A DNA stretch of 64,000 nucleotides from Armigeres subalbatus (taxonomy: Eukaryota > Arthropoda > Insecta > Diptera > Culicidae). The stretch spans positions 5,365,533 through 5,429,532 of the forward strand of contig NC_085139.1 in the NCBI RefSeq assembly GCF_024139115.2, written 5' to 3'. Positions 15,261-43,700 of this stretch are shown piece by piece. The position numbers were made by a program, and so were the translations under genes. A model generated the notes under the pieces. It did not search any database, was not told the origin of the DNA, and saw only the letters and a list, made by a program, of their open reading frames with translations. Numbering within the stretch: the first letter of the stretch is position 1; each line of letters opens with the position of its first letter.

Positions 15261-15556
15261 AGCAGCTTGGAAGAACGTTTCCGAGAAGCGTAGAAAGATG
15301 CTTCTAATCCTCTTGCAACGAAACAATCGAGCTTTTCGAAAAAAGCCTGATGCCTCTCAAGCGAAGGCTTCCGAACCTTCAAATTCTAGATTGTAGTTAA
15401 GAAGCATATTCTTCAACATTTTGTTTCGATCAGGTAGATTGCATAGAAGATTTTTTTAATTCGTTCATTTGTTCGATCTTTTGTAACCGTAGCCTTTGGT
15501 TGTGGAGGTCAGGATTCAATTGGCTTTGATTTACTGATCGCTATGCATATTATGTA
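15261..15556. other. Decayed satellite edge and spacer
   Basis: Units degrade between 15261 and 15380, with remnants such as ttgcaacg and ctctcaagcgaaggcttccg. AT-rich spacer follows. No gene is seen. Confidence 0.5.
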
Positions 15557-20066: not shown

Positions 20067-21028
20067 TTTTAAAGAGACTGTAAAGGTGTTCGGCCGTACG
20101 GCACACTATTTTTTGTACACACATACACGCTCACATGCACACATATAGCCTAAAGAGACTAATAGAAATTTTTGGATTTGGGCAAAGCTTCTTAGTTGTC
20201 GACCAAGTGTGACTAAGAAGGACGGCAGGGCTGTATGACCCAAGTATCCCAAAATAAACTATTTTTTCATGCGGTGTGAAAATGGGATTTTAGGGGAACA
20301 AATCAATACTTCCAATACGAAACTGAGACCAGTCTGGGTGCTGGTATAGCGAATCCGCACCAGCGGGAGGGCAGAATGTTGGCTTTGGGGGGGGTTGATA
20401 GTAACCAACAGTGCATCATTGAGGGCGGTAGCAGTGCGAATCCGCACCAGCTGGAGCGCAGAATGTTGGCTTTGAGGGGGTTGATAGTAACCAACAGTGC
20501 ATCATTGAGACCCATGTGGGCGGTAGCAGTGCGAAACCGCACCTGCGAGAGTGCAAAATGTTGGCTTTGGGGGGGTTGATAGTAACCAACAGTGCATCAT
20601 TGAGACCCATGTGGGCGGTAGCAGTGCGAAACCGCACCTGCGAGAGCGCAAAATGTTGGCTTTGGGGGGGTTGATAGTAACCAACAGTGCATCATTGAGA
20701 CCCATGTGGGCGGTAGCAGTGCGAATCCGCACCAGCGGGAGCGCAGAATGTTGGCTTTGGGGGGGTTGATAGTAACCAACAGTGCATCATTGAGACCCAT
20801 GTGGGCGGTAGCAGTGCGAATCCGCACCAGCGGGAGCGCAGAATGTTGGCTTTGAGGGGGTTGATAGTAACCAACAGTGCATCATTGAGACCCATGTGGG
20901 CGGTAGCAGTGCGAAACCGCACCTGCGAGAGCGCAAAATGTTGGCTTTGGGGGGGTTGATAGTAACCAACAGTGCATCATTGAGACCCATGTGGGCGGAA
21001 GCAGTGCGAATCCGCACCTGTGGGAGCA
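20067..21028. repeat. Duplicated unit 1: leader plus 95-bp satellite
   Basis: A leader of about 275 bp (starts ttttaaagagactgtaaagg) is followed by about seven copies of a 95-bp unit. The unit contains gtagcagtgcgaatccgcac, atgttggctttggggggg and ccaacagtgcatcattgaga. The first unit lacks acccatgtgg. G-run length and the pair caccagcggg/cacctgcgag vary between units. Frames of about 70-99 codons on both strands recur at exactly 95-bp spacing and are products of the repeat. Confidence 0.93.
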
Positions 21029-21595
21029 TTTTAAAGAGACTGTAAAGGTGTTCGGCCGTACGGCACACTATTTTTTGTACACACATACACGCTCACATGC
21101 ACACATATAGCCTAAAGAGACTAATAGAAATTTTTGGATTTGGGCAAAGCTTCTTAGTTGTCGACCAAGTGTGACTAAGAAGGACGGCAGGGCTGTATGA
21201 CCCAAGTATCCCAAAATAAACTATTTTTTCATGCGGTGTGAAAATGGGATTTTAGGGGAACAAATCAATACTTCCAATACGAAACTGGGACCAGTCTGGG
21301 TGCTGGTATAGCGAATCCGCACCAGCGGGAGGGCAGAATGTTGGCTTTGGGGGGGTTGATAGTAACCAACAGTGCATCATTGAGACCCATGTGGGCGGTA
21401 GCAGTGCGAATCCGCACCAGCTGGAGCGCAGAATGTTGGCTTTGAGGGGGTTGATAGTAACCAACAGTGCATCATTGAGACCCATGTGGGCGGTAGCAGT
21501 GCGAAACCGCACCTGCGAGAGCGCAAAATGTTGGCTTTGGGGGGGTTGAAGGTAACAAACAGTGCATCATTGAGACCCATGTGGGCGGTAACGTT
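21029..21595. repeat. Duplicated unit 2: same leader plus three 95-bp repeats
   Basis: The leader is almost identical to 20067-20345 (offset 962 bp; I noticed one substitution, gagacc/gggacc). It is followed by about three 95-bp units and a broken end at gtgggcggta (21595). Such identity implies a very recent duplication or collapsed/duplicated assembly of a tandem array. Confidence 0.92.
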
Positions 21596-21931
21596 ATTGA
21601 ATTTTCCAATCTATTTGCTGTGTATAACTGATTTCTATTTGGTATTTCTTGGATTTAGTTCTGTGAAAATAACTTATAAATGTTCCATGCAAGTTTGAAA
21701 AACTGGCATGCAAACGCCATCAGCATCAGTTTGAAGCTACCAAAAAATCAACAACATGCGAGCATAGGAACTGGGATATGGAAATGGAGAATAAACCATA
21801 GAGGAACTAGTCAGTTTGTAAAAATATATTTCATTCGACTTTTGACTCAATAACTGTATTCCAGCACACGGAACATTTTCTTATTCATGCTGCTGTTTTG
21901 AAAATTTAGAGAAATGTTCTCCAGCAGCAGT

Positions 21932-23001
21932 TGAGTAATTCTCGCTTTCGGCGAGTATATTAAGGATCCGAGTTAAATTCCTCAGAAAGATAAACCCCTC
22001 GTTAGTTATACACGAAATCGTTTTAATGGACCCCTCGATTTTTGTCAATTCTTGACTCACCAAAACTATCATAACTCCAACATTTCTCAACCGATCGTAG
22101 AGATCAACATATCGTTGGAAAGAGGAAGAGTGTATCCTCAATTTGCAATAGTAAACATAGAAGCAGCCATATTGAATTTGGCCGCCATCTTGGATTTCTT
22201 TTTGAAAACTATTTTTCAGCCAGGTTTGCAACCACCGATTTTGAATAATAATAGATCGATGGAAAGCTTAGCTTATATTGTGCATTGTGTCCAAAAATCT
22301 CAGGTGTATGTTTTTTCTATCAAAAGTTATGTACTATTTACCAATACCAAAATTGTTTAATACAATAACTTGAAAACGGCTCCGTTATGCTGTTGTAGAT
22401 ATGCTTTTCATTTTTGAAACATACTTAGCTTAGAATAGTGTATGAAATCAAGGAACTGACGTCGTAGTACCATATTAACCATAAAAATAATGTTCGTTGG
22501 TTAGATGGCCCTTCAAAAAATAATTTGGTAAATCATACATAACTTTTGATAGAAAAAACATACACCTGAGATTTTTGGACACAATGCACAATATAAGCTT
22601 AGCTTTCCATCGATGTATTAATAATCTAAATCGGTAGTTGCGAACCTAGCGTAAAAATAGTTTTCAAAAAGAAATCCAAGATGGCAGCCAAATTCAATAT
22701 GGCTGCTTCTATTTTTACTATTGCAAATTGAGGATACACTCTTCCTTTTTCCAACGATATGCTGATATCTACGATCGGTTGAGAAATGATAGAGTTATGA
22801 TAGTTTTGGTGAGTCAAGAATTGACAAAAATCGAGGGGTCCATTAAAATGATTTCGTGTATAACTAACGAGGGGTTCATCTTTCGGAAGAATTTAATTTG
22901 GATCCTTAATATACTCGCCGAAAGCTTTCGAAAGAATATAAATTTAGGCATTTTTAAGAACCTCGTGCAAATAGTGGCCCGGTTTCAGCGAGAATTACTC
23001 A
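21932..23001. mobile_element. Foldback element with arms over 400 bp
   Basis: Left end tgagtaattctcgctttcgg; right end inverted gcgagaattactca. The arms 21932-22335 and 22535-23001 are reverse complements with scattered mismatches. They share ggatccgagttaaattc, caattcttgactcaccaaaa and ccatcttggatttc-type blocks. The right arm has an extra block of roughly 60 bp near 22925-22985. The centre of about 200 bp is unpaired. No transposase is seen; open frames inside the arms mirror each other and are not coding. Confidence 0.85.
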
Positions 23002-23279: not shown

Positions 23280-24360
23280 AGCGTTAAAAAATGAAGATTT
23301 TTTTAAATCTTTCGTTTATTTGGAAGTCTCATTTGCCGTGAAGCGTTACGGAGCCGAAATCAGGTTTAACAATATATTTCTTGATTCTTATACATAGTGT
23401 TAGTTTTGGGGAACCGAAAGACTCGTGGTTTAGTCGAGGTTAGGGAATACAATAACACGGTAGGAAAGGAAAGGATTTTAGGGTACTTAAGTAATTACAA
23501 TGCTGATGCTCACAAAGTCCACATTCTTCGCGATGTTTCACATCTGTAACGGGACAAACAAACTTTTTTTGGGAGACAACGACGAGAGGAAGACATGCGG
23601 AAGAGATCAACGACAGACATTGAAATGTACAACAAGAGAAAGGCATTCGTAATGGGGTACGACAGACAAGAGAATGGGCAGTCAATAATTACAGTCTTCC
23701 ACCAGCAACTTTTAAAAATTGGTGGACCAGGGACATGTACTCAAGGTCAAGGCCCGACAACACTTTCCTAATAGGCTTTGGTTGTTTTCCTCGGACCCGG
23801 AGATCCCGGAGATGTTCAGTTAGCGCAGATCTGGGCCACGATGCTCCTCGCACGCCCACACGACATGATCGATGTCCTGATAATCCTCGCCGCAAACACA
23901 GAGATTACCTTCCGAGAGTCCCCCCCCTGAACAAATGTGCATTGAAAGTGTAGTGATTGGACATTAGACGACACATGGTTCGAATGAAGTCTCGTCCCAT
24001 ATTCAATTTGTTGAACCATGGACGCTTCGTCACCTCCGGGCGAATTGAATACAGCCATCTACCCAACTCTCCATCTGTCCATTTCTTTTGCCAGCTGTTC
24101 AAGGTTTCCTGGCGAACTAATGTGAAAAATTCAACGAAGGTAATTTTCCTATCGTAAATATCACCTTCCATAGCGCCCACCTTAGCAAAAGAGTCCGCTT
24201 TCTTATTTCCCGGGATCGAGCAATGAGAAGGGACGCAAGCCATGGTGATTGTGTAAGACCGTTGTGATAAGGCACTCAAAGCTTTCCGTATTCCATCCAG
24301 AAGATACGCTGAGTGCTTAACCGGTTTCATTGACCGAACAGCCTCCAAGGAACTTAGATT
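23280..24360 (-). pseudogene. I-like ORF2 RNase H end and 3' region
   Basis: The minus-strand frame 24348-23905 reads MEAVRSMKPVKHSAYLLDGI, then VPSHCSIPGNKKADSFAKVG and MCRLMSNHYTFNAHLF. This is the distal half of an RNase H domain (final acidic residue in KKADS) plus the conserved C-terminal block. It is the same family as 33824-34500. The minus-strand continuation (LAAQ-type tail, then untranslated) ends near 23280, where tcgtttatttggaagtctca parallels the 3' end at 33470. The upstream catalytic motifs are missing. Confidence 0.8.
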
Positions 24361-24889
24361 TTTTGATCCCTACAAGCACCCCTTAGCATAGCATAGCATA
24401 GTTATGGTGTACTTCGTAGATTGGACACTAGTGATACTCATGTTTTTCTTTTGAAATCCTTATTCAGATTGCTATCAGAAATCAAGGTGGGTGTGGTCCT
24501 TGATTTTAATCTAGGATAAAAATCACAAAAGCATGAGGATTACTACTCCTGGCCACGCCCATCTTCACCGTAACTTGGGAGGGGAAGGAAGTGTTGATGT
24601 AGTACTTACTTAACGAGAGGCCCCCGACTCAGCGACACCTTCATAAGTACCACGGAGTTGGATATTGGGGAAGGTATTCGTTGGGTCAGGATTTGCCTGT
24701 AGCTGACAATATGACCGTGGTAGATCTTACACCGTAACACACCACGCAAAGGTGTCTACCCAGCGTTACGGGGATCACATCTGGTGTTAGCAATGTTTCA
24801 CATAAAGCAAAAGCTTCGCATTGTAATTTGTTAACTAAAAATTATCTAATTTTGGAAGAACTCTTCGACAGTTCCACTGTAGAATCGAA
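24361..24889. other. Unassigned insert within I-like remnant
   Basis: It lies between RNase H (below 24348) and an ORF1 C-terminus (above 24890), both on the minus strand. It includes the short tandem agcatagcatagcatag at 24389-24403. No coding signal was recognised. Confidence 0.35.
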
Positions 24890-25406
24890 ATCATGTTACC
24901 CTTAATGACCAAGTTAGACATCGAAGGATACAAATGACTCGAGGAGGGGCATTTTTAAAGCCAGCTGCTTCAGGAGAGGAGTCAGAATAGCAAGAACAGT
25001 TTTGACCATGTTCTTCCATGGGGTCAGAAGCATCAAAGAAGTTGAGGGTGAGCTCCGCGATTCCAGAAAGTGTGAACATTGGAGCGCTCGAGAGTTCTTC
25101 TGCTCGCTCTTAATGCTCTCTTTTTGGCTGATAAATCGCAAAAATTGGGGCATCTGGGATTTTAGATGTTCCCGGAAGCGGTAGAAACTCTCGATCATCC
25201 CGATGTGTAACCACAAAAGCTGAACGTGTTTGAGTATTTCCATCCGCTTTGAATTTAACCATGTTGGATTGGGGCTCACTTTGCGGCTGTTTTCTAGGCT
25301 TTTTCGAGGGTCGCTGGCTCTGTTTTATTAGCTTCCTCGTTGAGCCATTAAAAACAAAGGGAACCCCATTTCCAACCTTAGGGCCTCCCAAAGATGGTGG
25401 TCGCAC
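24890..25406 (-). pseudogene. I-like ORF1 C-terminal part
   Basis: Reading down from 25406 gives GPKVGNGVPFVFNGSTRKL, a basic linker (RPSKKPRKQPQ) and NTQTRSAF. After a frame change it ends in NMVKTVLAILTPLLKQLALK and SFVSFDV near 24914. The ending parallels the plus-strand ORF1 tail at 30242-30622 (LAEIVSFDG). ORF1 products of this group bind element RNA. The copy is frameshifted. It faces the ORF1 at 25415 head to head. Confidence 0.7.
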
Positions 25407-25414
25407 ACGATTCT

Positions 25415-26354
25415 ACCATGCATCTTCTCCTGGGCCTTGGGTTGTTTACTTTCGGCAGAAAGTGAAAAGCCTAGATTTTCTCGGCATTAAGCGAGATTTG
25501 ACACGTCGTTTTCCGAAAACTGATTTCCATCAGGTAAATCGGAACAAACTACGCATAACCGCACCTACATACAAGGATGCAAACGAAATCGCTAAAGACA
25601 AGGCCTACAATGTTCAATATTTGGTTTATGTCCCCTCGCGGGAGGTCGAAATCGAAGGTGTGATAAACGCAGCGAGCCTGACCTGCAAGGATGTACTTGC
25701 AGGAAAAGGTCGTATTAAGAACGCCCTGCAATCTACTGTGGATATTCTGGATTGCAAAGAGTTGCATTCAGCAGCCATGGTAGATGGTAAGAAAGTGTAT
25801 TCTAAGTCAGGCTGACGTTCGCCGGTTCGATTCTCCCAAAATATGTAGATATTGAAAATATGTTATTTCCGGTGCGTCTTTTTGTGCCGAGGGTGTTCAA
25901 TTGTACCAACTGCAAACAGTTGGGGCACACTGCCGAGTTTTGCGACAACAAGCCCCGTTGTGGCAAATGTTTTGAAAAGCATAGGGAGGAGTCCTGTCAA
26001 CAACAAGCTACAAAGTGCGCTTATTGTGGCATGGATCCTCCCCATGGTTTGCAAGAATGCCCGGTGTACAAAAAGCGCACCCAAAAAGTGAAGCGCTCGT
26101 TGGTACAGCGCTCCAAGCAGTCGTATGCGGAAATGGTTAAGTCGCAAGACACATCCGCCACAACCACCGCCACGGCTGCTATTTCAGCTGCCGTTCGAGT
26201 AAGTGATTACTACGATTCTATTGCCACTGATGAATTGGACTCCGACGTAGCTGATATGGATGATTCTTCGGAGGTACACGTGCCCGAAAAGAGGAAGCAA
26301 CCGTCTTCCCCGGGATCGCGCCGTAAGAGAACAAAAGTCATCCATAAAAGCTGA
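25415..26354 (+). pseudogene. I-like ORF1 with CCHC zinc knuckles
   Basis: The frame 25415-25815 gives SSPGPWVVYFRQKVKSLDF, DLTRRFPKTDF and NKLRITAPTYKDANEIAKDK, the N-terminal ORF1 domain. A frameshift near 25812 changes to the frame reading LTFAGSILPKYVDIENM. It continues into knuckles CTNCKQLGHTAEFC, CGKCFEKHREESC and CAYCGMDPPHGLQEC, then a basic and serine-rich tail ending RKRTKVIHKS. The product would be a gag-like RNA-binding protein. The C-terminus resumes at 30200, beyond an inserted DNA transposon. The 5' end is truncated at the junction with the minus-strand ORF1 at about 25410. Confidence 0.85.
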
Positions 26355-26415
26355 GCGATTCCAAGCAACAGCATCAAAATTTAAGAAAATTTTTAATTCA
26401 TGATTTTCTATTGAG

Positions 26416-29400
26416 TTGAAACTTTGCACAGTTTTTCAATTTCATCTAAATCGTCATTTTTCGATATCAAATCTTCATATTGAGTCACGACTAACTTTTC
26501 AAAAGGGTGTATGTGAAAATGGTTCAAAAATATTTAAAAAGCTGCACAGCAAAAACGGAATGTTCGATTGTTATGATTTTTTCAGCAAAGTTAGACAACT
26601 AAATGGTGATTCTTAAGAAAATGTGCACAGTAAAAAAAAAATTTTTTTGCCTTTAAAAATAAAATTATCTCAAAACCCTATCTTTTTTCGAACGTAATTT
26701 TTTTAGGGAAAACGGTCCATTATATTAGCTATCTACCATAAAAATTTGGTGATGGTAAACTAATAAACAAAAAAGTTATGACATTTCAAACATTTCACAA
26801 TTTTCACATATAGTAAACCGTGTATTTTTTTTTTCAAGAATCGCAGTTTGATGCTGATTTTATTGTTAAGGGCCTTGCGTGAGTTAAACAAGTTGTTTGT
26901 ATGATATTCCATATTTATGTATTCATCGATATTATGTATATTATATGTATAAATATTATATGTATAAATAAATAAAAATGAATTAATATTATCCTAAGTA
27001 TTAAATTAAATGTGGCAGTTACACAATGTTGTTATAGAAACTCTAAGAGTTTTGGGTTTGAATTTTAGTATGGGTTATGATATCATGAAAACAGTTTATT
27101 AATACTTATTTTTTATTTATTTTATTCAAATTTTTTAAAATATCGAACACTTTTGAATTATTATCAGCACAGTTTGAGTATAGTTTTGCTTTAATTTTAT
27201 TTTCCGACAATGGAATGAAACAGTGAAATTTTTGGGTTCCTTGGATCGTTTTCGCGTTATTAAATTGCTCGCTGAGCTCTGAAGCCTTTATTTCGTACTC
27301 TTCAGTAGTAGTAAAACAAAATGATAATTTGGTTAAATCTTTTTCTTTTCTACGATTTGCCCAATCAAAAGTTCTTTCGCAGTTTTAATTGGATGCTCAC
27401 GTTCTTTGGCTAAACTTGCTCTTGTGGCCATGCGCTTTATTGTTCCTCCAATAGCATCACAAGGACCTTTGCCATGTGATGTAGCAAAAATGCCATTCTG
27501 CATCAATTCCGTACATTGATTTAAATTGACATAGGCTCGAAAAATTCTTACGATTTTTATACTGCGACGCTGCTCCATCAGACATGAAATATATCTTTTG
27601 ACTTCTTTATGCTTATCAACGCGTAAAAGTTAATCATTTTTTCAATGAACAAGTTTACGGATACTGAATCGTGTCTTAAATCTTCGGAAATTATAATAAA
27701 ACTTAAGTGTTCAATTAGCGTACTTCCATTAAAATAAATAACGAATGGATGAATTGTAGCTTGTTGTACATTCCAGTGATGGGACTGCACTTCATCTTGC
27801 AATACAAAGCTGTAATTTTCAGAAAAATCACAAATGACTAAAAATTCACCATTTTGTAATGTATTTTTCGTATTTTTTAAAAAGCTGGATTGTTCTGTTT
27901 TAATGAAATCGTGAGGAATTAAACTTTCTAATTTCAAGCAAAAATATGACACAAACTCATCTACAGGTTTTACAATAGTTTCTATGTCACACCTATCCGT
28001 GGTCACCCATTGCTCAAATGATAACTGATCAATATATTTTTCTTCAAACTCAGCGAATAAAGTATTTTCCAATGATGAAGAATCTGGACAATCCGAACAA
28101 GATCGTAGATAGCAATTTGATGTTGTATTTTCACACAAAAGACTACCAGTTAACATTTTAATATCCTTTGTTAAATTGATTCTTTTCAAACTATGTAAAA
28201 TAAGATTAATATTCTCATGGGTTGTGCACACACACATTATGTGTTCCTGAATTGGAAAGAAGCTTACATTGCCTTGGCCGAAGGCTTGCAAATGAGGAAA
28301 AACCTATTTTAATATTATCGTGAATTTCCTTGAAGCGTGTGTACGCTTCTTTCAAAGTCGTCATCATTAATCGTTTTTGGACGCTTTCCATCTTTTTTTA
28401 CTGATACATAATCTTTTTGACCAGGCATAGCTCGACTTACTTCATCATCTTCAAAATATTGAACTACTATTTCTTTTGTCTCATCTGTTAATGCAGTACT
28501 AGACCTAGTATTTTTGGTTGAAAGACAGTTATTCTTCAATTGTTTTGCCTCTTTTACTGTATTTCTATTGGTTTTGAACTCATCAATGGCATCCTGAATA
28601 GACCACGAACTTGGCAGCATCGACAAAATCAATAATTTTTCTTTCCTTGTCGTGGCTGCATTCGAGAACCTTTCCTTCATATTTATAATTACCTCATCGT
28701 AGTCTGTATTTTCCACATCATCAGGTCCTAATTTGAAGAGGTTTCTTCGTACAGCTTCGTTTATTTCACGGTATTTTTCTCCGGGTAATAAACGTAGTCC
28801 ATCTTACTCCATTTAATCGGAGTCACTTTTATCCCAGCTATGCCCTCGTTAAAGCGTTCGATGTTGACCTTTTGGATACACTCATCTTCCGATTGATTTG
28901 TTGAAACAGATTTCGCTGATGGTACGGTGGCAAGGCTCTCAGCACTTAATACTTCTGGTAATTCCTCAGTTGTTGTCGATACATCTGGCAATTCCTCAGT
29001 TGCTGTCGTTTTCGAACTTCCTGCGCTCTGCTCAACCGATGATATACAGATTGCTCTTTTGTCAACGTTTAGACGGCAGGACGTGCAAATGCGTAAATTT
29101 GTATTCAATGTGGACATTGGAGCATAACCAGTCGCTTTCAGTTTATCTATGGTGCTTTCGGTGAGATTTCGTAACTCTTTTGAACACTTTTTTCCATCAA
29201 ACGGCCTACAACAGTTGAGAAAGCGGCTACTCATGTTGTTCGTAATATTTCAATAAACAAAATCACTTTTAAGTTTTTACTGACTAGTTTGGTGTCATTT
29301 GCTTGACTGAAGAAAAAAATTACTATAAGATCTTTAACAACCTTAGTAGTAGTAATTTTTTGCTTTTTCGTGAGCATTGTCATGGTATGTTCCTATCATT

Positions 29401-30199
29401 CATTTGTTGTTGTTGAAGATACCCGTTTCCTCCCGATCATAAAGTCTATTCTCTAAGAGGTATATTTTTGCAGGTAAACTATAGACGTACACGTGTATAT
29501 AAATCTTTGATTTTGCAGCTTTTGTCTTAAAAATAACATTTCTGATATGTTTCTATCAACGTTATTATCAACAGGTTTCAACACTATTAAAAGAATTTTT
29601 CGCCAGTCACGTGCAATGAAAATTATGACACTATCAATACTTTTGATCACAACACTGGATCGTGTCTAAGTTTCTTATAGATGCTATGAATAATTAAATC
29701 AAAATATCATGAAAACAACTTGTTTAAATCACGTCCCTTAACAATAAAATCTGCATCAAACTGCAATTCTCGAAATAACTTACACAGAAAAAAATTGTGA
29801 AATGTTTGAAATGTCATAACTTTTTTGTTTATTAGTTTACCATCACCAAATTTTTATGGTAGATAGCTAATATAATGGACCGTTTTCCCTAAAAAAAATT
29901 ACGTTCGAAAAAAGATAGGGTTTTGAGATATTTGAGTTTTTGTGACAAAAATGATATTTTAAAGGCAAAAAAAAATTTTTTTTTACTGTGCGCATTTTCT
30001 TAAGAATCACCATTTAGTTGTCTAACTTTGCTGAAAAAATCATATCAATCGAACATTCCGTTTTTGCTGTGCAGCTTTTTAAATATTTTTGAACCATTTT
30101 CACATACACCCTTTGAAAAGTTAGTCGTGACTCAATATGAAGATTTGATATCGAAAAATGACGATTTAGATGAAATTGAAAAACTGTGCAGAGTTTCAA
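26416..30199. mobile_element. DNA transposon with inverted repeats of about 490 bp
   Basis: The left arm 26416-26908 and right arm 29703-30199 are reverse complements: ttgaaactttgcacag outside; ccgttttgctgtgcagc-type and catcaccaaatttttatgg blocks inside; aacaagttgtttgtatgata at the inner limit. The outermost 20-30 bp are eroded, so the exact ends and target duplication are uncertain. The element splits the I-like ORF1, whose C-terminus resumes at 30200. The interior (26909-29702) holds a decayed minus-strand transposase-like gene. Bases 26909-27330 and 29235-29702 are AT-rich with no coding signal. Confidence 0.85.
27333..29234 (-). pseudogene. Transposase-like gene, broken by frameshifts
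   Basis: Reading down from 29234, the N-terminus MSSRFLNCCRPFDGKKCSKE has paired cysteines (RICTSCRLNVDK further on) and a Ser/Thr/Glu linker. A second frame (28716-28315) has LSMLPSSWSIQDAIDEF and PGQKDYVSVKKDG. Across an apparent frame change come GTHNVCVCTTHENINLIL, VICDFSENYSFVLQDEVQ, HHWNVQQATIHPF and FIIISEDLRHDSVSV. After another shift come IYFMSDGAASQYKN and EWHF, and after a third ATSHGKGPCDAIGGTIKRMA. This motif order is that of a widespread uncharacterised animal family (Hydra, arthropods) that I regard as DDE-type transposases; the superfamily is not certain. Conserved Asp in DFSEN and SDGAA are candidate catalytic residues. At least three frame changes disable it. Confidence 0.75.
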
Positions 30200-30622
30200 A
30201 TATTTTCGAAATGGTCGCTCAGGATCGACTGACATGCCCCCGTGGAATGCCTCAGCTTGCCAAAATCTGAAGGTAATGAGGGATTATTTAAAATCCCGAA
30301 GCAATCTGTCTTCACTGCTCGTTTGGATCCTAGTTGCAGCAAGACATTCCCGCCATTGCATAAAACCGATGTTTCCAAGAAACATCCGGTTAGGAGAATC
30401 AATGAAAGAAAAAATGCAATTCGCACTTCCAGAAAAAATATTCCGTCCAAGCGAGGATTGATCTCCTTTAAGGACCTCGTGGACCGTTTTCTGAATTTGT
30501 TCAATATTCCGAATTCATTGAGGCCACTCATTGACCTCTTTATACCAACAGTAGAAAGTTATCTGAAGCAATTGACTGTTTCATGGCCCCTTCTTGCAGA
30601 AATTGTATCTTTCGATGGATAA
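30200..30622 (+). pseudogene. I-like ORF1 C-terminus, after the transposon
   Basis: The frame 30242-30622 reads MECLSLPKSEGNEGLFKIPK, a basic stretch, then KRGLISFKDLVDRFLNLF, and ends LLAEIVSFDG-stop. It is the continuation of ORF1 from 26354. The stop TAA (30620-30622) overlaps the start of ORF2 at 30615 in the string atggataa, suggesting coupled termination and re-initiation. In-frame stops upstream (before HAPVECLS) mark decay. Confidence 0.75.
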
Positions 30623-30659
30623 TACGGCCATGCAAGATACAATCACTGTGCTGCAGTGG
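30615..30659 (+). pseudogene. First 15 codons of I-like ORF2
   Basis: The ATG at 30615 gives MDNTAMQDTITVLQW, the usual opening of an I-type ORF2, where an endonuclease domain should follow with NCRSL. Instead the sequence switches at about 30660 to a minus-strand RTE fragment. The missing continuation, LKHKLDVFKFLIRNSDCDIF, is at 37410 on the opposite strand. Confidence 0.8.
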
Positions 30660-31105
30660 TATCATATGTGGCTTTGAAGTCGATGAATAGATGATGTGTG
30701 GGCACGTTGTTGTATTCGCGGCATTTCTGCGGTACTTGGCGAATGGCGAACACCTGGTCCGTGGTGGAGCGTTCGCCCATAAAACCCGGGTTTTACTGGT
30801 ACTGCCCCACGAACTCCCTTGCAATTGGTGCTAGTTGACGGCATAAAATTTGGGAGAGTACCTTGTAGGCAGCGTTCAGCACTGTGATTGCGTGGTAGTT
30901 GCTACAATCCAGTAAATCACCTTTTTGTAGATAGGGTACACTACACCATCCATCCACTCCTACGGCAAAACTTCCTCCTCCCAAACCTTGGTAATTACCC
31001 TCCTGGATTTCCTGGATATCCAGAGCCGGTAAAATTATGTCCTGCGCGTGTTCTCCCAGGTTCATCACTGAACCGCCAAACATCGTCACATCGGAATAAG
31101 ACAAA
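30660..31105 (-). pseudogene. RTE-like reverse transcriptase, N-terminal part
   Basis: Reading down from 31104, frames give DCSNYHAITVLNAAYKVLS, LAPIAREFVGQYQ, then AGFMGERSTTDQVFAIRQ and FIDFKATYDT near 30660. FIDFKxxYD is RT motif A with its catalytic Asp. The fragment ends exactly there, and the next residues (DRDQLWQLM) begin on the plus strand at 37411. At least one frame change lies near 30800. Confidence 0.82.
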
Positions 31106-31640
31106 AAGATTGATTATCCGATTTTGATAAAGCTCTACTATTCGAACGCAATACGCTCTACTATTGATAAAGCTCTACTATTCAAACGCAATATGGGTAT
31201 CTGATTACAGAAACATTTTCAGAACGGATTTTTGACCTGTAGCTACAGGTTAGCCGGAAAATTAGTTATAGATGTTTGGTAAATCATAAATTTCTATCAA
31301 ATTTCACGTTACAAACAATGATAAACAATGAAAAAAGCATTTTTAACATACCCTCGAAAAACCCGGAAAATCTCCAATGTTCGTAAATCGATGATTTAAG
31401 TAAAGGATAGAAAACTAGAAGAATTTCTACGTCCGATGGTTTCGGCTTTATCAAATTCGAATTATTATAAGCATTGAGTTTCGTCAAATTTTTGCCAATC
31501 TCAACTTTTTTGTGCAACCCCTGTATATACTTGACTTCTCTATGCAAAATTACTAACCCAAACCGGGTCTAGTCTCGAAACCAGTCAACTTCAGCATGAT
31601 CTGCTTTGTAGCAATGTATAATTTGCTGAGCTTTGCGCTG
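31106..31640. repeat. Tc1/mariner-like terminal fragment and AT-rich sequence
   Basis: Bases 31501-31530 read, on the minus strand, gtatatacaggggttgcaca followed by aaaaaagttg. This resembles the common insect Tc1/mariner-type end ggggttggacaaaa. I could not find the partner end. A 20-bp direct repeat gataaagctctactatt occurs at 31127 and 31164. No gene is seen. Confidence 0.4.
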
Positions 31641-32693
31641 CAGGTCTTCGCATGCACATCACAGCATTATAATCTCTGATTCTCCACTTAAATTCCAAGA
31701 TCCTCAACTCTCAAAAGTTCTATCAAAAACTTCTATCACATTTCTGAGTACAGGAAATCAAATTTTTCAGAAGTTGACTCCTAGTAATATCCTGGAATTT
31801 CGATCAGAATTGCAAAGTTTGATTAAGAATCTCATATTTTAAAAATGTTCTAAAATATTCGAATCTTGAACTAATAAAAAGGTCATTATTTCAATGTCCT
31901 TCTAGAATTTATTTGTTTTTCATCTTTTTGATATTACATAATATACATTGCGATGTTTCAAAGCCAGGTTATTATTTTTGAAATGCTGGCATGATGAAAC
32001 TCTAATGCCCAGGTAAATTCATAAAAAATATAGACCGGACCAGGAATCGAACCCAGCCTCCTTCACTGCTATTGCATCAGAAGACTAAAAGTTTCGGAAA
32101 CTATTTTATTTCCAACATCTCCATTTTTTTTCATTCCACCTCGAGCATCCGTGCGAGACGGTTGTAAGTCGGCGTACGGTCTGCTTCTCATTCGTTTTTT
32201 TTTTATACTGAAGTAAAGGTAGCGATTTTTTTTCCGAAAGATTTTTTTTCGAAAGTTTTTTCCGAAAGAAAGCAAAACTTTGCAGTTCCTTCGGCGTCCA
32301 TCGCAGGCGCAGGCATCATTATCCTACGCCAAAAGTCATCATCCATCGTGCGTCTCCTCCAACACAGACGCTGCCGTCCTGTCACCATCCATCCACTCAG
32401 TTGCAGTGTTGTGTGCAGCGAGAACACCAACAACAGCGTGGTTCGCTTCTACCGCACCACCGGCGAGTGTCTATACAGCCCAGTGTGTGCTGCCAGCACT
32501 GTTAGCCGGCGACACAGCAGTGTGAACGCAAGTATTTACTTGAGCTCCCTCTCATTGTTCCCCTCTCTTCTCCATCTTATTGGAATAGTTTTTTTTCTTT
32601 TTTACTCGTCTTCCCTGTCTCGTCTCGTCTCCACTTTTCCAAATCAATATTTTGTGAATGTGTGTTTTTTTTTTCTGTCCTTGTGAAAATTGT
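31641..32693. other. LINE-type 5' untranslated region (inferred)
   Basis: Bases 32280-32530 are GC-richer and repeat-free, and they precede the ORF1 start at 32962. That is the place and composition of a non-LTR 5' UTR. A tRNA-like B-box in minus orientation (ggttcgattcctggtc) lies at 32038-32056, probably a SINE remnant. The rest is AT-rich with nothing recognised. Confidence 0.35.
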
Positions 32694-32697
32694 TTAA

Positions 32698-32826
32698 CCC
32701 TTAAATGCGCCAAGTTGTTTTAAAACAACAAACCGGAAATACGTTCAATGTTAATAATTTCAATGGTTATTTACGTTAAAAATATTTCCGACGATTTCTA
32801 AAAAAATCGCCTTGCGCCTTTAAGGG
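32698..32826. mobile_element. piggyBac-like MITE, TTAA target
   Basis: TTAA occurs at 32694-32697 and 32827-32830. The ends are cccttaaatgcgccaag and, inverted, cccttaaaggcgcaagg. Length 129 bp. CCC-starting inverted repeats with a TTAA duplication are diagnostic of piggyBac-type insertion. It sits in the presumed 5' UTR of the ORF1 at 32962. Confidence 0.85.
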
Positions 32827-32961
32827 TTAATTTTAAAATAGATTGTGCCTTGCTGCAGCGGCGCATTTCGTGTCCGCAATGCACGAAGGCAAAAATGGCG
32901 GGGGTACTTCGTATACCATGTCTAATGTTTCGTTCATTCGGGTGTTCCAAACCAAAACGAA

Positions 32962-33452
32962 ATGGATACCAGTAACACTAAAATTTCCTCTACGAGCCCC
33001 CGTCCCAAGGTCTACCCTCACGACTCTAGTGGGCCGTATGTTGTTTTCTTTCGACCCAAAGGCAAACGTTTGAATATCAGCCAGATAAGCAAATATCTGG
33101 AAAAGTGATTCTCGTCTGTCAAGACCATCGACATGTTTGGATCCAGTAAACTTCGCGTCACGATCAGTGATCGCAAACAGGCCAACGAGATTGCCACCTG
33201 CGAGCTTTTCACTCTCGAATATAAGGTCTATTTACCGTTAGCAGTGTGTGAGTTCGCGGGGGTGGTGACGAAGGCGACGTTTTGAAACAAGGTTGTTTCG
33301 GTTGTTTCAAAAACGTTTCTTTGCCGCCTGTTGCGATACTGGATTGCAAACAAATATATTCGGTGTCGCAGGAGGGAGAGAAGCGGATTTATTCCCCGTC
33401 TGACTCTTTCTGCGTCACCTTTTCCGGGTCCGCACTTCCTGACTACGTAGTG
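32962..33452 (+). pseudogene. I-like ORF1 N-terminal part, second copy
   Basis: The ATG at 32962 opens MDTSNTKISSTSPRPKVYP, then SSGPYVVFFRPKGKRLNISQ, and meets a stop after SKYLEK (33104). Read-through continues FSSVKTIDMFGSSKLRVTIS and RKQANEIATCELFTLEYKVY. After a frame change come ILDCKQIYSV and SDSFCVTFSGSALPDYVVI, ending abruptly at the poly(T) of the minus-strand element at about 33450. It is the same domain order as 25415-25815, but more diverged. It is decayed and truncated before the zinc knuckles. Confidence 0.8.
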
Positions 33453-36400
33453 ATTTTTTTTTTTCAATTTCGTTTATTTGGTAGGCTCAGGCGTGTATAA
33501 CACTTTACGGAGCCATATTTCTTTGTGATATATACAATTAATGTCATTTTTTTTAGTTAGTAAGAGAGGGATAGGAGCCAGCGTACTCGTGGTGACTCGA
33601 GGTTAGTTTACAATATTAAAGGATGGACGAGGCTTAGGATTCGGAATCAAGGAATTTCGGCTGCTCATCCGGGCATTTGGCGTAAGGGACGATGTGGCGT
33701 GTCGTCGTGCTCGAGGATTGGTTCTACTGGGAGCGTCTTCCGGATGGCCTGAGTAACGGAGATCTACGGAACATAGAGACAGAGACAGTACAAAAAAAAA
33801 AACTTTGACAGAAGAAAAAAAAATTAGATTTTGATGTCAGAATCACAAATGAAACTATAAATGGCCTGCATATAGACCGCATCACGATCCCCCAAAACAC
33901 CTCGAATTTCCCTGAAGGGTTGTTTACCTCGGGCCACTAGGGTATCCAATAGTCGCTCTCTGGAGGCGTCATTTTCCGAGCAGAACCAAACTACGTGATC
34001 GATGTCATCATAACCGGCTCCGCACCTACATAAGTTGCTATCGACAAGGTTTATTCTGTACAGATGTGCGTTTAGTGAATAGTGATTGGACATAAGTCTC
34101 GACATCACGCGAATGAAGCCTCGACTTAAGTCCTTACCTCTGAACCACGCTCGCCCAGAAACTTTTGGAACTATGGAAAATAGCCACCGTCCGAGTTCAT
34201 TGTGTGTCCAATTCCTTTGCCAACTTTGAAGAGTACTCTGACGGACTAATGGGAAAAACTCGTTGCTCGAGAATTGTCTATCATAAACCTCACCTTCCTG
34301 TGCGCCCACCTTTGCCAGCGAGTCTGCCTTCTCATTGCCGTAGATTGAGCAGTGAGATGGGACCCAAACAAAGATAATCTTGAATGATCTTTCGACCAAA
34401 CACGCATCTGCTCTCTTATGTTTGTAAGAAAGTAAGATGCATGCTTAACAGGTTTCATCGACCGGAGTGCCTCGATAGAACTAAGACTATCCGAGAAGAT
34501 GAAATAATGGTCTACGGGCTGATCGGAAATTATCCCCAAAGCGAAGTTAATTGCTGCCAGCTCAGCAACATAAACCGAACACGGTTCCTGAAGTTTTTGG
34601 AAGGTGGTTGAAGTTACATTGAAAACACCGAAGCCAGTGGATCCGTTGATGCGAGAACCATCAGTGAAATATATGTTGTTGCAATTGACATGTTCATATT
34701 TTTCAGAAAAAAGTGAGGGAATAGATATTTGTCGAAGATGATCTGGTATTCCTTGAATAGCATGTTTCATGGACAGATCGTATACAATTGAGGAACTGTC
34801 GTTGGTGAAGTGAACTCGAGGTGGATTATAACACGGAAGACAAAGATCTGACGATATGTAGTTGAGATAAATTCTCAGGAATCGGAATCGGAAAAAACGA
34901 CAAGTTAGTTCAAGCATATTATCGAAGTTATCTAGAACAAGTGTGTTACTTGTTCCACATTTGATGAGTATTCTAAGCGAGAGCTCCCAGTAACGGTGCT
35001 TTAAAGGAGTGACTCCAGCAAGCACCTCCAGGCTCATGTTATGCGTTGAATGCATGCAGCCAAGGACAATACGCAAACAACGATACTGAATTCGTTCCAA
35101 TTTGATCAGGTGGCAATCAGCTGCTGAGAGGAAGCAGAAGGAGCCATACTCTAAAACAGAGAGAATAGTCGTTCTATAGAGTTTGATGAGGTCTTCCGGG
35201 TGAGCACCCCACCATGTTCCGGAGATAGAACGTAGAAAATTGATCCTTTTCCGGCATTTTTGTATCAAATACTTAATGTGGAGTTTCCAGGTACATTTCG
35301 AATCAAACACGACCCCAAGGTATTTAGAAGATAAAGATTGGTTGATGTCATCATTCAACAGCTTGAGTTTCAGTTGAGCAGGATACCGCTTCTTAGTAAA
35401 CACAACCAACTGAGTTTTTTGCGGTGAAAACTCGATCCCTAAATGTCTGGCCCAAACAGTCAGATTATCTAAGGTACTTTGCAATGGTCCTTGCAAGACA
35501 GCTGCACATGGACCTCTTAGAGAGACCACGGCATCATATCTGCAAGTTGTCTGAGCCTTCCAAACAATTGTCAATATCTTTGACATAGAAATTATAAAGC
35601 AAGGGACTTAAACATGAACCTTGGGGAAGGCCCATGTAACTAGTTCTGGAAGTTGTCAGAGTGCCGAGTGCGAAGTTCATTTGTTTTTCTGACAACAAAT
35701 TGTAAAAGAAATTATTCAAAATAATGGGTAATCCATTACTGTGCAGATTGTCTGACAGTACTTCTATGGAAACTGAATCAAAAGCGCCCTTAATATCCAA
35801 GAATACTGAAGCCAATTGCTCCTTGTGCGCAAAGGCCAGTTGTATATCTGAAGAAAGCAACGCTAGACAATCGTTTGTTCCTTTCCCTTTTCTAAATCCA
35901 AACTGAGTATTTGAAAGTAATGCATTTTCTTCGACCCAATGGTCGACTCTTGAAAGGATCATTTTCTCCAATAATTTTCTCATGCATGATAGCATGGCAA
36001 TCGGTCGGTATGAATTGTGATTAGACGCTTTGACCTGTCGCCATTCAGGTGGCACAATGTTGTACTCCATGAAACAGTTGTACAGGTCAAGTAATCGTCT
36101 TTTTCCGATATCTGGGAAGTTTTTCAGAAGATTTAATTTGATGTTATCGCATCCCGGAGCAGAGTTATTCGATGAGAGAAGAGACATAGAAAGTTCCAGC
36201 ATTGTGAATGGGCCACCCAAAGAACCGGGATCAGTGACTGATTCTCGAAATAGCGGTTCTGCTGGTACGGAATCTGGGCAGACCTTTTCACGAAGTTGAA
36301 TATCCATCGATTGGAGTATTCTTCACTCTCATTGGTGGAAATGCGGTTCCGCATGTTGCGAGCCGTTTTCCAAAGTGTTGTCATTGAGGTTTCTCGTGAT

Positions 36401-37410
36401 AGTCCCTCGACAAAACGTCGCCAGTAGCTACGTTTTTTAGCCTTGAGAAGATTTTTGAGTTTTCTTTCGAGCCTCCAATACTCTTCCAAAAGCTCTGACC
36501 TTCCGTGTTTACGGAAGGCCTTGAAGGCATCAGATTTCTCAGAATACAACTTAGTACATTCATCATCCCATCCAGGAGTGGCTGGTCTTCTTATGACAGA
36601 TGTACTTGGAACGCGTCGTTTCTGAGCTTCTAGTGCGCTTTTTGAATCAACTCAGTAAGGAATCGATATTCATCCAAAGGTGGAAGAGTATCAGTTGATT
36701 CAATACCAATTTTACCGCCGATGCAATTTTTTGCCAGTCAATGTTCTTCGTGAGATCGAAAGGAACATTAACTGGCTCAGATTGTTGATAGCCACTCTTA
36801 ATTGTGGTGACTATCGGCATATGGTCACTACCATGGGGATCTTGAATTACCTTCCACGTGCAATCTAATGATAGTGAATTTGAACATAAAGACAGATCAA
36901 TACGGCTTTGTTGACCATTTGGTCCTATTCGAGTTACTTCACCAGTGTTCAAAATATTCAAATTGAAATCGTCACACAAATCATAGAAAATAGGCGCTCT
37001 ATAATCGTCATATCTTTCGCCCCATCCAATACCATGTGCGTTCATATCACCCAATATCAATACTGGAGATGATAGGAGGGAGACTGCGCTCCAAAAATGT
37101 CGACGATTAATAGAGGCATTTGGAGGAATGTACACTGAAGCTATGCAAAGATCTTTATTCTTTACATTTATTTGGCAAGCGACGATCTCTAGGCCATTAA
37201 CAGTCGGAATGGGAATTCTGTAGAAGCAGTAGCACTTTTTGATCCCCAAAAGAACGCCACCATAATGATCATCCCGATCTTGGCGAATAATATTAAAATC
37301 GTAGAAGTTGATTTCATCTTCAGAAGAAAGCCATGTTTCACAAAGTGCAAATATATCGCAATCGGAATTGCGAATCAAAAACTTGAACACGTCTAATTTA
37401 TGTTTCAGTC
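33450..37410 (-). pseudogene. I-like non-LTR ORF2: endonuclease, RT, RNase H
   Basis: Reading down from 37410: an AP-type endonuclease with LCETWLSS, LGDMNAHGIGWGE, SRIDLSLCS and GSDHMPI (37390-36647). Then a linker (36549-36340). Then RT with NSYRPIAMLS, QFGFRKGKGT, FLDIKGAFDSV and GLPQGSCLSPLLYNFYVKD (36307-35570). A frameshift falls at the catalytic box. Then come the thumb and RNase H with YFTDGS, AELAAINFAL, FSDSLSSIEAL and, after another frameshift near 34390, GNEKADSLAKVG (34399-33824). The 3' end shows a poly(A)-type tract (poly(T) at 33452-33461). At least four frame changes inactivate it. The family is inferred to be I clade because RNase H lies downstream of RT. Its first residues are found at 30615. 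Confidence 0.88.
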
Positions 37411-38365
37411 TATGACAATCGGTCGGGACCAGCTATGGCAGCTAATGCACGAACACGGATTTCCGGATAAACTGACACGGTTAATCAATGCGACGATGGA
37501 TTGGGTGATGAGTCCCCTCGAAACGCGCAGAGGGTTACGGCAAGGTGAGGTCTTTCATGTCCGCTATTCAACATCGCTTTGGAAGGGGTAATACGAAGAG
37601 CAAGGATTAAGACGAGTGGTACAATTTTCAATAAGTCCGTCCAGCTATTTGGCTTCGCCGATGACATAGATATTACGGCACGTAACTTTGAGAAGATGGA
37701 GGAAGCCTACATCAGACTGAAGAGGGAAGCTAAGCGGATCGGACTAGTCATCAACACGTCGAAGACGAAGTACATGATAGGAAGAGGTTCAAGAGAAGAC
37801 AATGTGAGCCGCCCACAGCGAGTTTGCATCGGTGGTGACGAAATCGAGGTGGTAGAAGAATTTGTGTACTTGGGCTCACTGGTGACTGATAATGATACCA
37901 GCAGAGAAATTCGGAGACGCATAGTGGCTGGTAGTCCTGGACGGACACGAGATCTGGACGATGCTCGTGGAGGATCAACGCGTACTTGGAGTTTTCGAAA
38001 GAAAAGTGCTACGTACCATTTATGGTGGGGTGCAGATGGCGGACGGTACGTGGAGGTGGCGAATGAACCACGAGTTGCAAGAGCTGCCGGGAGAACCATC
38101 CATCGTTCACACCGCGAAAATCGGATTACTGCGGTGGGCCGGGCACGTAGCCAGAATGTCGGACATTAACCCGGTTAAAATAGTTCTCGACAACGATCCG
38201 ACGGGCACAAGAAGGCGAGGTGCGCAGCGGGCAAGGTGGATCGATCAGGTGGAAGATGACTTGCGGACCCTCCGTAGACTGCGTGGTTGGCGACGTGTAC
38301 CCATGAACCGAGCCGAATATATACCGCACAGACCACTTCGGCCTTAGTCTGAATAAATAAATAGA
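37411..38365 (+). pseudogene. RTE-like reverse transcriptase, C-terminal part
   Basis: Begins tatgacaatcggtcgggacc, i.e. DRDQLWQLMHEHGFPDKLTR directly after motif A. Then come RRGLRQG (motif B, frameshifted), FGFADDIDITA (catalytic box intact), EFVYLGSLV, LLRWAGHVARM and GAQRARWIDQVEDDLR, with a stop near 38346. The 3' end is short with ataaataaata, as usual for RTE elements, which have minimal 3' UTRs. Two or three frame changes inactivate it. The N-terminal half, to motif A, is at 30660-31105 on the other strand. Confidence 0.82.
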
Positions 38366-38369
38366 GGTA

Positions 38370-38530
38370 GTGATCAGAGTCAACGTTCGGACCTCTGAAT
38401 GTCCGCACATCGATAAATTACGAGATGTGGCGCCCATCCACCAGAACATGGTCTATCTGGTTGCAAGTTTCACCATTTAGGTGTCTCCAGGTGTGCTTTC
38501 GGATGTTCTTTTTTCGAGATGGGGCTGCTA
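38370..38530 (-). pseudogene. RTE-like endonuclease fragment
   Basis: Minus-strand translation gives HTWRHLNGETCNQIDHVLVD, then RTFRGPNVDSDHYL, which are the late motifs of an AP-type endonuclease (the S/DH pair). It is a separate fragment, opposite in orientation to the neighbouring RT. Confidence 0.7.
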
Positions 38531-38883
38531 TCTTAGGTATATTTTACGGGGACTAGCATTTCATACTCAGCCGTCGGATACCAGTACAGACGCTGTCTGA
38601 GCCGCACCTTTTTGGTGGATAGATGCTCGATCAGTCGGAACAGATTTGCCTATAGTCCTACTCCAAATCAGGACAGGGATAGTGAGCTTCGAGTGGCACA
38701 AGTCGCTATACGGCAGGGCCTGTTTGCGGATACATGCAGCTTATAAAAGTTCAACACAGCTGTCAAACTGTCAAACCCCACCACATTTAGGTAGACTCCA
38801 CAGGACGCAACCTCTCACTTTAACTGATGTCAGAAGAACAACAGTGCTTAGACTACACTACCAGGTTAGTACACAACGCATAA
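38531..38883. repeat. Retrotransposon remnant related to 57590-57655
   Basis: Bases 38809-38870 (aactgatgtcagaagaacaa, then cagtgct) closely match 57598-57655 in the 5' region of the ORF1-bearing element there. The rest is unassigned. Confidence 0.45.
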
Positions 38884-40701: not shown

Positions 40702-43700
40702 TATAAATACGCGGTGTGCCCATCCCGCCAACGTTCATCAGCCGTCCTGGCCCTGAGGTTGAGTTTGGGGAAGGAGTCTTCCAAAATCAATTATCAGGCG
40801 AGTACCTTCAAGATTCGAACAGTTCGATTCCTCAATCAAACGCCCTTTCCAGTGCATTGTTCAATGGCTTTCAGTCATCGGTCTGCGTGAACAGGATCGT
40901 CACAGCAGAGGACGCCGCTGCAAGTGATTCCCGCTACCTGAGCGTCTACTATCAAAACGTCAGGGGTCTGCGTACTAAGACAACCGTTTTGAAGTTACGA
41001 CTCTCATCCTGCGATTGCGATGTTGTTGTGCTATCAGAAACTTGGCTCAAATCCGATATTTGTAATTCGGAGCTTTCATCGGACTACTCCATTTTTCGTT
41101 GCGACCGTAACGAGTTTACCAGTGGTCTTTCTAGAGGCGGTGGCGTATTGGTTGCAGTCAAACGTGAATTGCAATGTACTGAAGTGTCCCTATCTGACTG
41201 CTGTGCGCTTGAACAAGTCGCAGTCACATTGAAACTCCCTCATAACTCTCTGCATATTTTCGGTATCTATCTTCGCCCGAATTCCGATTGCGAGCTTTAT
41301 GCTACCCACTGTACGGCAGTGCAAAGCTTAATTGATAAATCATCCGTTAATGACGTTTTCCTGCTGCTTGGGGATTATAATCTCCCTCATCTTCAATGGA
41401 TCTTCGATGACGACATCAACGGCTATCTGACAACTAACGCATCTAGCGAGCAAGAAATTTCCCTTAGCGAAGCTATCTCGACATGTGGTTTGGTGCAAAT
41501 CAACCCCTTCGTTAACCGTAACAATAGGCTACTCGATTTGGTTTTCACAAATGCTTCTGACAACATGGACATCTCTCAGCCCGTTCTGCCGCTCATACCA
41601 ATCGACGAGCACCATCCACCGGTAGTGTTACATATCGACACCTGCTGCCTAATACCGCGTTATTCTGACCAGGAACCGGATCCCATGGATTACGACTTTC
41701 GGCGGTGCGATTTTACTTCACTTAATACAGAGCTTTCTGCGGTTGATTGGAGTCATCATTTCCATGGGCACTCAGTAGATGCTAACGTACTGCTGTTCTA
41801 CGACAAGCTGTACGAAATATTGCACCTTATAGCTCCTCGTCGTCGTCGCATTAATCGTGGTGTTAATAACAAGCCTTGGTGGAATGCTCAACTCAGAAAC
41901 CTGCGAAACAGATTGAGGAAGCTACGCAAACAGTACATCGCTAACAAAACTGACGGGAACAGAGTTTCCCTCCATCAGGTAGAAACCTCTTATAACGACC
42001 TCCTCGATGCCAGTTACCGAAGATATATGAACGACCTCCAGTCAAATCTTAAAAATAATCCGTCCAGGTTTTGGAGATTTATCAAATCGTAAAAGACGGC
42101 TAATCAAGTTCCGAACAATGTTGTTTATGGCGACACTACAGCTACCACATCTGATGAAGCTGCGAACCTTTTCGCCGACTTTTTCAGAGTGTGTTCAATG
42201 CGAACCCTCACCCAGGTAGTTTTTCAAATGTTCTACCGCATGATATTAACCTCGCACCCTTTCAGTTCTCCTATCTAGAAGTAATGAAAGCTCTTCGCGA
42301 TTCAGATGCTTCAAAAGGTGCCGGAGTGGATGGCCTAACACCTTTCCTGCTGAAAGCCTGTGCTGAATCACTAGCGGCTCCACTAACACTACTTTTCAAC
42401 AGATCGTTGAGTGAAAAAACGTTCCCTGGACTATGGAAAACAGCAACGATGATTCCAATTCACAAATCTGGAAGTTTGCGCAAAGTTAATAACTACCGTG
42501 GAGTTTCCATTCTTTGTTGTGTTGGAAAACTTCTTGAATCATTAGTTCATAAAGTTTTGTTATCTGCTGTTAAACCACTCATTTCAATTCATCAGCACGG
42601 TTTTCTTCCTCAACGCTCTAGTACAACGAATCTGCTATGCTATTGTATTGCGCTCTTCCGTAAAGTCAGGAAGCGCAATCAGGTGGACTCCGTATACGTA
42701 TTTTCGAGAGCTTTCGACACCGTGCCTCACCAACATGCCGTTGCAAAGTTACGGCACTTGGGTTTCCCTGAATGGATAGCAGATTGGATAATGTCATACC
42801 TGACTGGCAGAAAGGCTTTCGTTCGTGTTGATGCCTCACGGTCTAGGACTTTCAGCATTACCTCGGGTGTGCCCCAGGGCAGCGTGCTGGGACCTTTACT
42901 GTTTATCCTGTATATCAATGACTTGACCAACTGCCTTACCTCTGCAAAGCTTCTGTACGCTGACGACCTCAAAATTTTCAGAGTAATACACTCTTTGCTG
43001 GATTGTGTTGCTCTACAAACTGATATTGACGTACTCCGCCGTTGGTGCGATGAAAACGGAATGAGCGTGAATGTGGCGAAATGTAAAGTCATCACCTTCT
43101 GCCGAATCATATCCCCAATAATGTACAGCTATACTTTTGCCGATGCTGCACTAGAGCGTGTTTCGTCGATTCGTGACTTGGGCGTTACAATGGACTCAAA
43201 ATTGCGGTTCAACGAACATATTTCTGCAATAACGGCGAAGGCATTCGCAGTTTTTGGATTTATTCGTAGGAATGCAGCTCATTTCACCGATGTTTACACC
43301 TTGAAAGCTCTGTACTGTGCACTTGTGAGGAGTATTTTAGAATATGCTGCCCCTATTTGGACGCCGTACCATACGACCCAAGTGATTCGCATTGAACGAG
43401 TTCAAAAGCAGTTCATCCGTTTTGCACTTCGGCACCTACCGTGGAACGATCCAATGCACTTACCTGACTATAGAGCCCGATGTCAGCTAATTAACCTGGA
43501 ACTACTCTCAACAAGACGACTCACCTTCAGAAGACTTGTAGTGTATGACATCATCAGTAGTAACATAGACTGTCCGGACTTGCTCGTGGATGTACAGTTG
43601 AGCATACCTAGCCATAGCCTGCGTCACGCTGATTTACTCGCTGTCCCAACCCACCGAACAACGTACGGATACAATAATCCCTTGAGCTCCTGCCTTAGAG

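Follow-up and report, generated by a model that had tools for sequence, protein, structure and literature searches.

Two retrotransposons broken at the same two points support a 6.76-kb inversion in Armigeres subalbatus

The window, by which we mean the whole stretch of 64,000 nucleotides of Armigeres subalbatus DNA that was analysed, is packed with dead transposon fragments. Three retroelements are of concern here: a Loner/I-like element (I-a), an RTE-like element and a third element (I-b). Their parts, a DNA transposon that interrupts I-a and the segment proposed to be inverted are as follows, with strands as printed.

23286–23298, minus strand: proposed target-site duplication of I-b, 3' copy, ATCTTCATTTTTT on the minus strand.
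23299–25383 (right edge approximate), minus strand: remainder of I-b, with the ORF1 C-terminus, ORF2 residues 1–51 and about 1002–1222, 3'UTR and tail.
25384–26354, plus strand: I-a ORF1, N-terminal and CCHC part, placed by tblastn of ORF1 relatives.
26405–30210 (edges approximate), no strand assigned: DNA transposon with long inverted repeats (I2–I5, I8, I10 and I12), inserted in I-a ORF1 and outside the inversion.
30233–30622, plus strand: I-a ORF1, C-terminal part, lying behind the DNA transposon of about 3.8 kb; residues 333–456 of relative P0241 match 30254–30619.
30616–30659, plus strand: start of I-a ORF2, MDNTAMQDTITVLQW, cut at the left breakpoint; relatives continue W-N.
30658–31105, minus strand: left half of the RTE-like element, ending at RT motif A (FIDFKATYDT), inverted and 5'-truncated; relatives reach 31001 and the edge near 31105 was set by eye.
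30660–37417 (right edge 37417–37419), no strand assigned: inverted segment supported by alignments of split relatives.
32117–32129, plus strand: proposed target-site duplication of I-b, 5' copy, ATCTCCATTTTTT.
32132–33453, plus strand: I-b 5' end (by eye), 5'UTR and N-terminal part of ORF1, inside the segment and adjoining the I-a 3' tail; matched by 25 of 26 ORF1 relatives.
33454–37420, minus strand: I-a ORF2 from the residue after W to the 3' tail (endonuclease, RT, weak RNase H), inverted; placed by Pfam and relatives P0001–P0016.
37418–38363, plus strand: right half of the RTE-like element, from IGRDQLWQLM to the 3' tail AATAAATAAATA (tail by eye); placed by relatives and PF00078.

I-a has the organization of a Loner/I-type element, that is, an ORF1 with CCHC motifs (read by eye) followed by an ORF2 with endonuclease and reverse transcriptase (RT). 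Its 5' end is only approximate, as the matches of relatives begin between 25345 and 25402. In ORF1, residues 11–324 of P0241 match 25384–26327 in two pieces (tblastn); Pfam gave no match to this ORF, in which three CCHC-like knuckles are visible by eye. In ORF2, Pfam recognized PF14529 (1.5e-19) and PF00078 (8e-23), while PF00075 for RNase H was found at an E of 0.002–0.005, below the curated cut-off, and is carried by the best relatives. Of the best 120 of 155 relatives, the first 16 are 49–74% identical, and the named sources near the top are mosquitoes (Anopheles, Topomyia and Aedes albopictus). UniRef names among the relatives include 'i-11 aae' and, for ORF1, 'Putative loner ele1' of Aedes albopictus. 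I-a is like Loner and other I-type elements in its ORF1 with three knuckles and in an ORF2 with endonuclease, RT and a weak match to RNase H. Unlike intact ones, it is a dead copy, truncated at its 5' end, interrupted by a DNA transposon and, in our reading, cut by an inversion. Comparison of its 5' region (25260–25399) with its 3' flank revealed no convincing target-site duplication. The DNA transposon within it (26405–30210) has subterminal inverted repeats, including arms of 170 bp at 94%, 91 bp at 98% and 107 bp at 100%. Pfam on four of its degenerate minus-strand ORFs gave one weak match, below cut-off, and no clear target-site duplication was seen for it.

The second element is cut at RT motif A and is one that we take to belong to the RTE clade, as in a preliminary description of this DNA. 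An RT is present (PF00078, 3.6e-8 for the ORF at 37549–38169) and relatives were found; no relative name among the matches listed says RTE. Its RT halves are 63–78% identical to P0122, P0123 (source label Metarhizium majus) and P0131 (Toxorhynchites). Unlike an intact element of this type, the copy is 5'-truncated near 31105, frameshifted and cut at motif A. A search for a target-site duplication, comparing the 3' flank with 30990–31350, found none that was convincing. Directly behind its 3' tail, on the minus strand at 38364–38540, is a stretch with a 39-residue reading that looks like the end of an RTE endonuclease; no continuation of it was seen by eye across the RTE.

Both proteins are broken where the preliminary description had placed them, and the joints were read again in the sequence. 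For I-a, the left piece ends on the plus strand with GTG CTG CAG TGG (VLQW) at 30648–30659, and ORF2 resumes on the minus strand at 37420 with GAT TGT CAT AGA CTG AAA (DCHRLK). Relatives were collected with a query that omitted the start of ORF2 and also the next four residues, so that the missing half was unused, and 25 of the 40 best were chosen because W-[NS][CASV][RH]S occurs close to the beginning of their sequence. In all 25, this W is followed by N, which falls at exactly 37420 on the minus strand in 21 of them; three more are in register and start further in, and a single one (P0030) is out of register. As 21 of 25 relatives align at 37420 and VLQW ends at 30659, the cut lies between Trp and the next residue and nothing was lost between them, although GAT stands where relatives have Asn, so that one base of that codon was lost or changed. 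The relative of highest identity, P0015 (74%), reads NCHSLKPKLDLF where the window has DCHRLKHKLDVF.

For the RTE-like element, whose minus strand ends ...LFIDFKATYDT at 30658, the relatives were found with the right half only; the 42 that carry the motif-A pattern, from the best 120 of 248, were split there. Their left halves end at 30658 in 38 cases and one codon short, at 30661, in three, and the remaining relative (P0128, with 11 residues on the left side) has no left match. On the right, 25 of the 42 begin at 37418 with residue 1 and another three at 37424 with residue 3; in 14 the first right-hand match begins only from about 37549. Both sides of the split are exact in 23. A single flip of the segment thus puts both split proteins back in order and in phase, as had been proposed, and relatives split at the cut residues keep register. 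The flanking pieces are co-linear once the segment is turned back, as they are in a simple inversion.

These alignments also fix the edges of the segment, which was originally drawn at 30660–37410. The left edge stands, at 30659/30660. The right edge moves to 37417–37419, from the I relatives that align at 37420, and the RTE, said to resume at 37411 on the plus strand, does so on that strand with IGRDQLWQLM at 37418. The bases 'ATC' at 37418–37420 can be read as either element: on the plus strand they encode Ile in the RTE, and on the minus strand they are the GAT of I-a. The right edge is for this reason given as a range, 37417–37420. The inversion reading, in which 30660 to about 37417–37419 is one inverted segment of about 6.76 kb, is supported. 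Two details of the earlier account were not borne out. The I element was thought to have lost about 10 bp; judged from protein relatives, the loss or change would affect no more than one base, in the Asn codon. A duplication of about 7 bp (tatgaya) had been assigned to the RTE; the bases tatgac at 37411–37416 are instead read as I-element sequence, where the minus strand encodes Cys-His. They are not in the reading frame of the RTE and are therefore no RTE duplication. TATGA occurs near the break in both elements (37411–37416 in the I element and 30660–30669 in the RTE), probably by chance, and this had suggested the duplication.

If the two halves of the RTE were parts of one copy, their divergence should be alike, and the preliminary description had named halves of different divergence as grounds for refuting the inversion. 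Left and right identities to the same relatives were similar in magnitude and gave a rank correlation of 0.80 at the protein level, for the 31 of 42 relatives with more than 40 and more than 100 aligned residues. P0123, for example, is 78% identical on the left and 73% on the right, and P0126, whose match reaches 31001 in the left half, 66% and 63%. The identities of the RTE halves go together, and the inversion is therefore not refuted by this comparison. The I-a ORF2 start, with 15 residues, is too short to be compared in the same manner.

A third element, I-b, behaves likewise. Of 27 ORF1 relatives that had been found, 26 were used in the I-b test. The N-terminal part lies inside the segment on the plus strand, and the C-terminal part, matched by five of the 26 at 25379–24920, lies outside it on the minus strand; the two cover distinct, ordered parts of ORF1. 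Left of the I-a 5' end, the same strand continues with the start of ORF2, then with the ORF2 end and a 3' tail at 23299. As printed, the halves are opposite in orientation; the same flip makes I-b co-linear, with its halves co-oriented around I-a. Once flipped, they can be read as a single copy that I-a interrupts and that has lost most of its ORF2. About 110 residues of I-b ORF1 are absent where I-a sits, and nesting of I-a in I-b therefore requires a target deletion. Most alignments of the N-terminal part extend to 33479, beyond the I-a tail edge at about 33454; this is taken for chance because 33456–33489 resembles the I-b 3' end (family D6).

A repeat of 13 bp with a single mismatch, ATCT(C/T)CATTTTTT, is common to the 20 bases just outside the I-b 5' end and the 20 just outside its tail. 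It is direct when the segment is flipped and not before; as printed, the best match with one mismatch is 5 bp. An equally good match arose in 14 of 20,000 shuffles and in 5 of 20,000 random 20-mers of the window. These figures carry some choice, because the repeat was found in an open search and the 5' end, earlier placed near 32120, was set at 32132 after the match had been seen. In that first search (a 230-base against a 131-base region) one of 30 shuffles reached 13, and the repeat is T-rich.

Two readings without any inversion can be weighed against these results. One is that unrelated fragments of different copies became nested or clustered by chance, and the window is indeed full of such fragments. 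Here, though, the two proteins break off at the same two points and continue from them in register, the RTE halves are matched in divergence and I-b agrees. The earlier judgement that a real inversion, or an inverted piece of assembly, is likelier than chance nesting is upheld by all three observations, and we give chance nesting almost no credence. The other reading concerns I-a. Twin priming, a 5' inversion during retrotransposition, gives 5'-inverted LINE copies and could have been the origin of the I-a arrangement. In such a case the inverted parts of I-a should be adjacent, whereas they are separated by 6.7 kb with I-b and RTE sequence, and a second, unrelated element cut at the same two points would have no account. 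Twin priming is refuted by the RTE halves and by the orientation of I-b, and its probability is negligible.

The sequence at the breakpoints bears on how the inversion was made. The two breakpoints, each taken with its 1-kb surroundings, show no similarity to one another (blastn, E up to 0.01), and the left region matches only the DNA-transposon repeat at 26416–26455, on the same outer side. Within 50 bp of the breakpoints, there is no inverted match of at least 6 bp, and there are two direct ones of 6 bp. No inverted duplication of ancestral sequence was found at the ends of the segment. Ectopic recombination and staggered breaks were rejected on these grounds. Ectopic recombination between inverted repeats finds no repeat copies common to both breakpoints, and the absent inverted match also speaks against an invertible element with terminal inverted repeats. 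Staggered breaks would be expected to leave an inverted duplication, and the 7-bp 'duplicate' is read as I-element sequence. As no repeat common to the breakpoints was found and the window contains no N bases, the best fit is a pair of breaks repaired by end joining.

An error of assembly, in which the 6.76-kb piece was sequenced correctly and then put in the wrong way round, would mimic much of this, since a balanced, near-lossless exchange would look much alike and the region is repeat-rich. In Aedes aegypti, only 32 of more than 500 inversion candidates of all sizes are reported to have been confirmed at both breakpoints (PMC7068900). Against an artefact, the absence of N bases weighs against a contig turned within a scaffold, no inverted repeat or shared sequence that could mislead an assembler was found at the breakpoints, and the joints, as judged from protein relatives, appear to be a few bases off a perfect cut and flip. 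We regard an artefact as unlikely. The sequence favours a real inversion, and we infer that the chromosome itself is flipped here, not the assembly alone. It is highly probable that a small inversion of the chromosome took place, made by two double-strand breaks and end joining.

The following history is proposed for it, with the ancestral codons taken from protein relatives. Ancestrally, an I-b copy on the minus strand would have held the 5'-truncated I-a on the plus strand, followed to the right by the 5'-truncated RTE, also on the plus strand. One break would have fallen in I-a ORF2 between the Trp and Asn codons and a second at the Thr codon that follows motif A in the RTE. The freed piece of about 6.76 kb would then have been rejoined in reverse by non-homologous end joining, with a net loss of about 5 bp. 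If the ancestral codons were Asn (AAT) and Thr (ACN), 12 bases around the cuts would have become 7, and up to four of the roughly five bases of net loss could be shared bases (GG and AT). The RTE is at most two bases of its Thr codon short, and those may be shared with the GG of the I element. It is also conceivable, and very doubtful, that the elements caused the inversion, the breaks being made by retrotransposon endonuclease or reverse-transcription intermediates on the nested copies, and that the inversion may still segregate in the species.

The only sequence recognized inside the segment, outside 31106–32116, is transposon. The case is like the microinversions of Aedes aegypti, which are too small to be seen cytologically, occur in a mosquito genome rich in TEs and are reported to be abundant: 23 below 500 kb, with a median of 43 kb, were confirmed, and 11 of the microinversions were reported to be gene-free (PMC7068900). 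Those inversions were established with linked and long reads from several colonies, whereas the one here, at 6.76 kb, is smaller and comes from one assembly, its order being read from dead transposons. It is also like the Drosophila inversions attributed to breakage and end joining, joined without recombination between repeats (PMC3355041). In Drosophila mojavensis, staggered breaks are reported to have left inverted duplications of kilobases; here none was found, and a net loss of about 5 bp would have occurred.

Small inversions are a known kind of change, and what sets this one apart is chiefly the clarity with which the earlier arrangement can be recovered. It shows that retrotransposons that are nested and dead can preserve the trace of a small inversion almost to the base: one assembly suffices to read the original order, the two breakpoints and the scar left by repair, with no need of an outgroup genome. 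Annotation is corrected as well, since many fragments here belong to three copies. A limited search of the literature, on non-LTR elements at the breakpoints of mosquito inversions and on nested insertions in small inversions, returned no description of such a case. In viral contigs, pattern searches for DNA-level relatives gave 13 and 8 matches, of which none proved to be a relative, and the observed left joint and a degenerate RTE motif each gave 0 matches.

Other repeats were observed elsewhere in the window. At 14499–15385 is a tandem repeat of about 23 bp in which all three minus-strand frames are open, with KRPGSLLSRGPEASFQEARKPPF-like repeats and ORFs of 252–287 residues. A 95-bp tandem array at 20067–21680 is broken by a stretch of at least 300 bases that is present twice (100%, 962 bases apart), as either a recent segmental duplication or a duplication in the assembly. 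A foldback-like inverted repeat spans 21944–22925, with arms of 401 bp at 94% and a spacer of 180 bp. On the plus strand at 40707–43429 lies another non-LTR element, with endonuclease and RT matches and an identity of about 23–33% to the I-a relatives.
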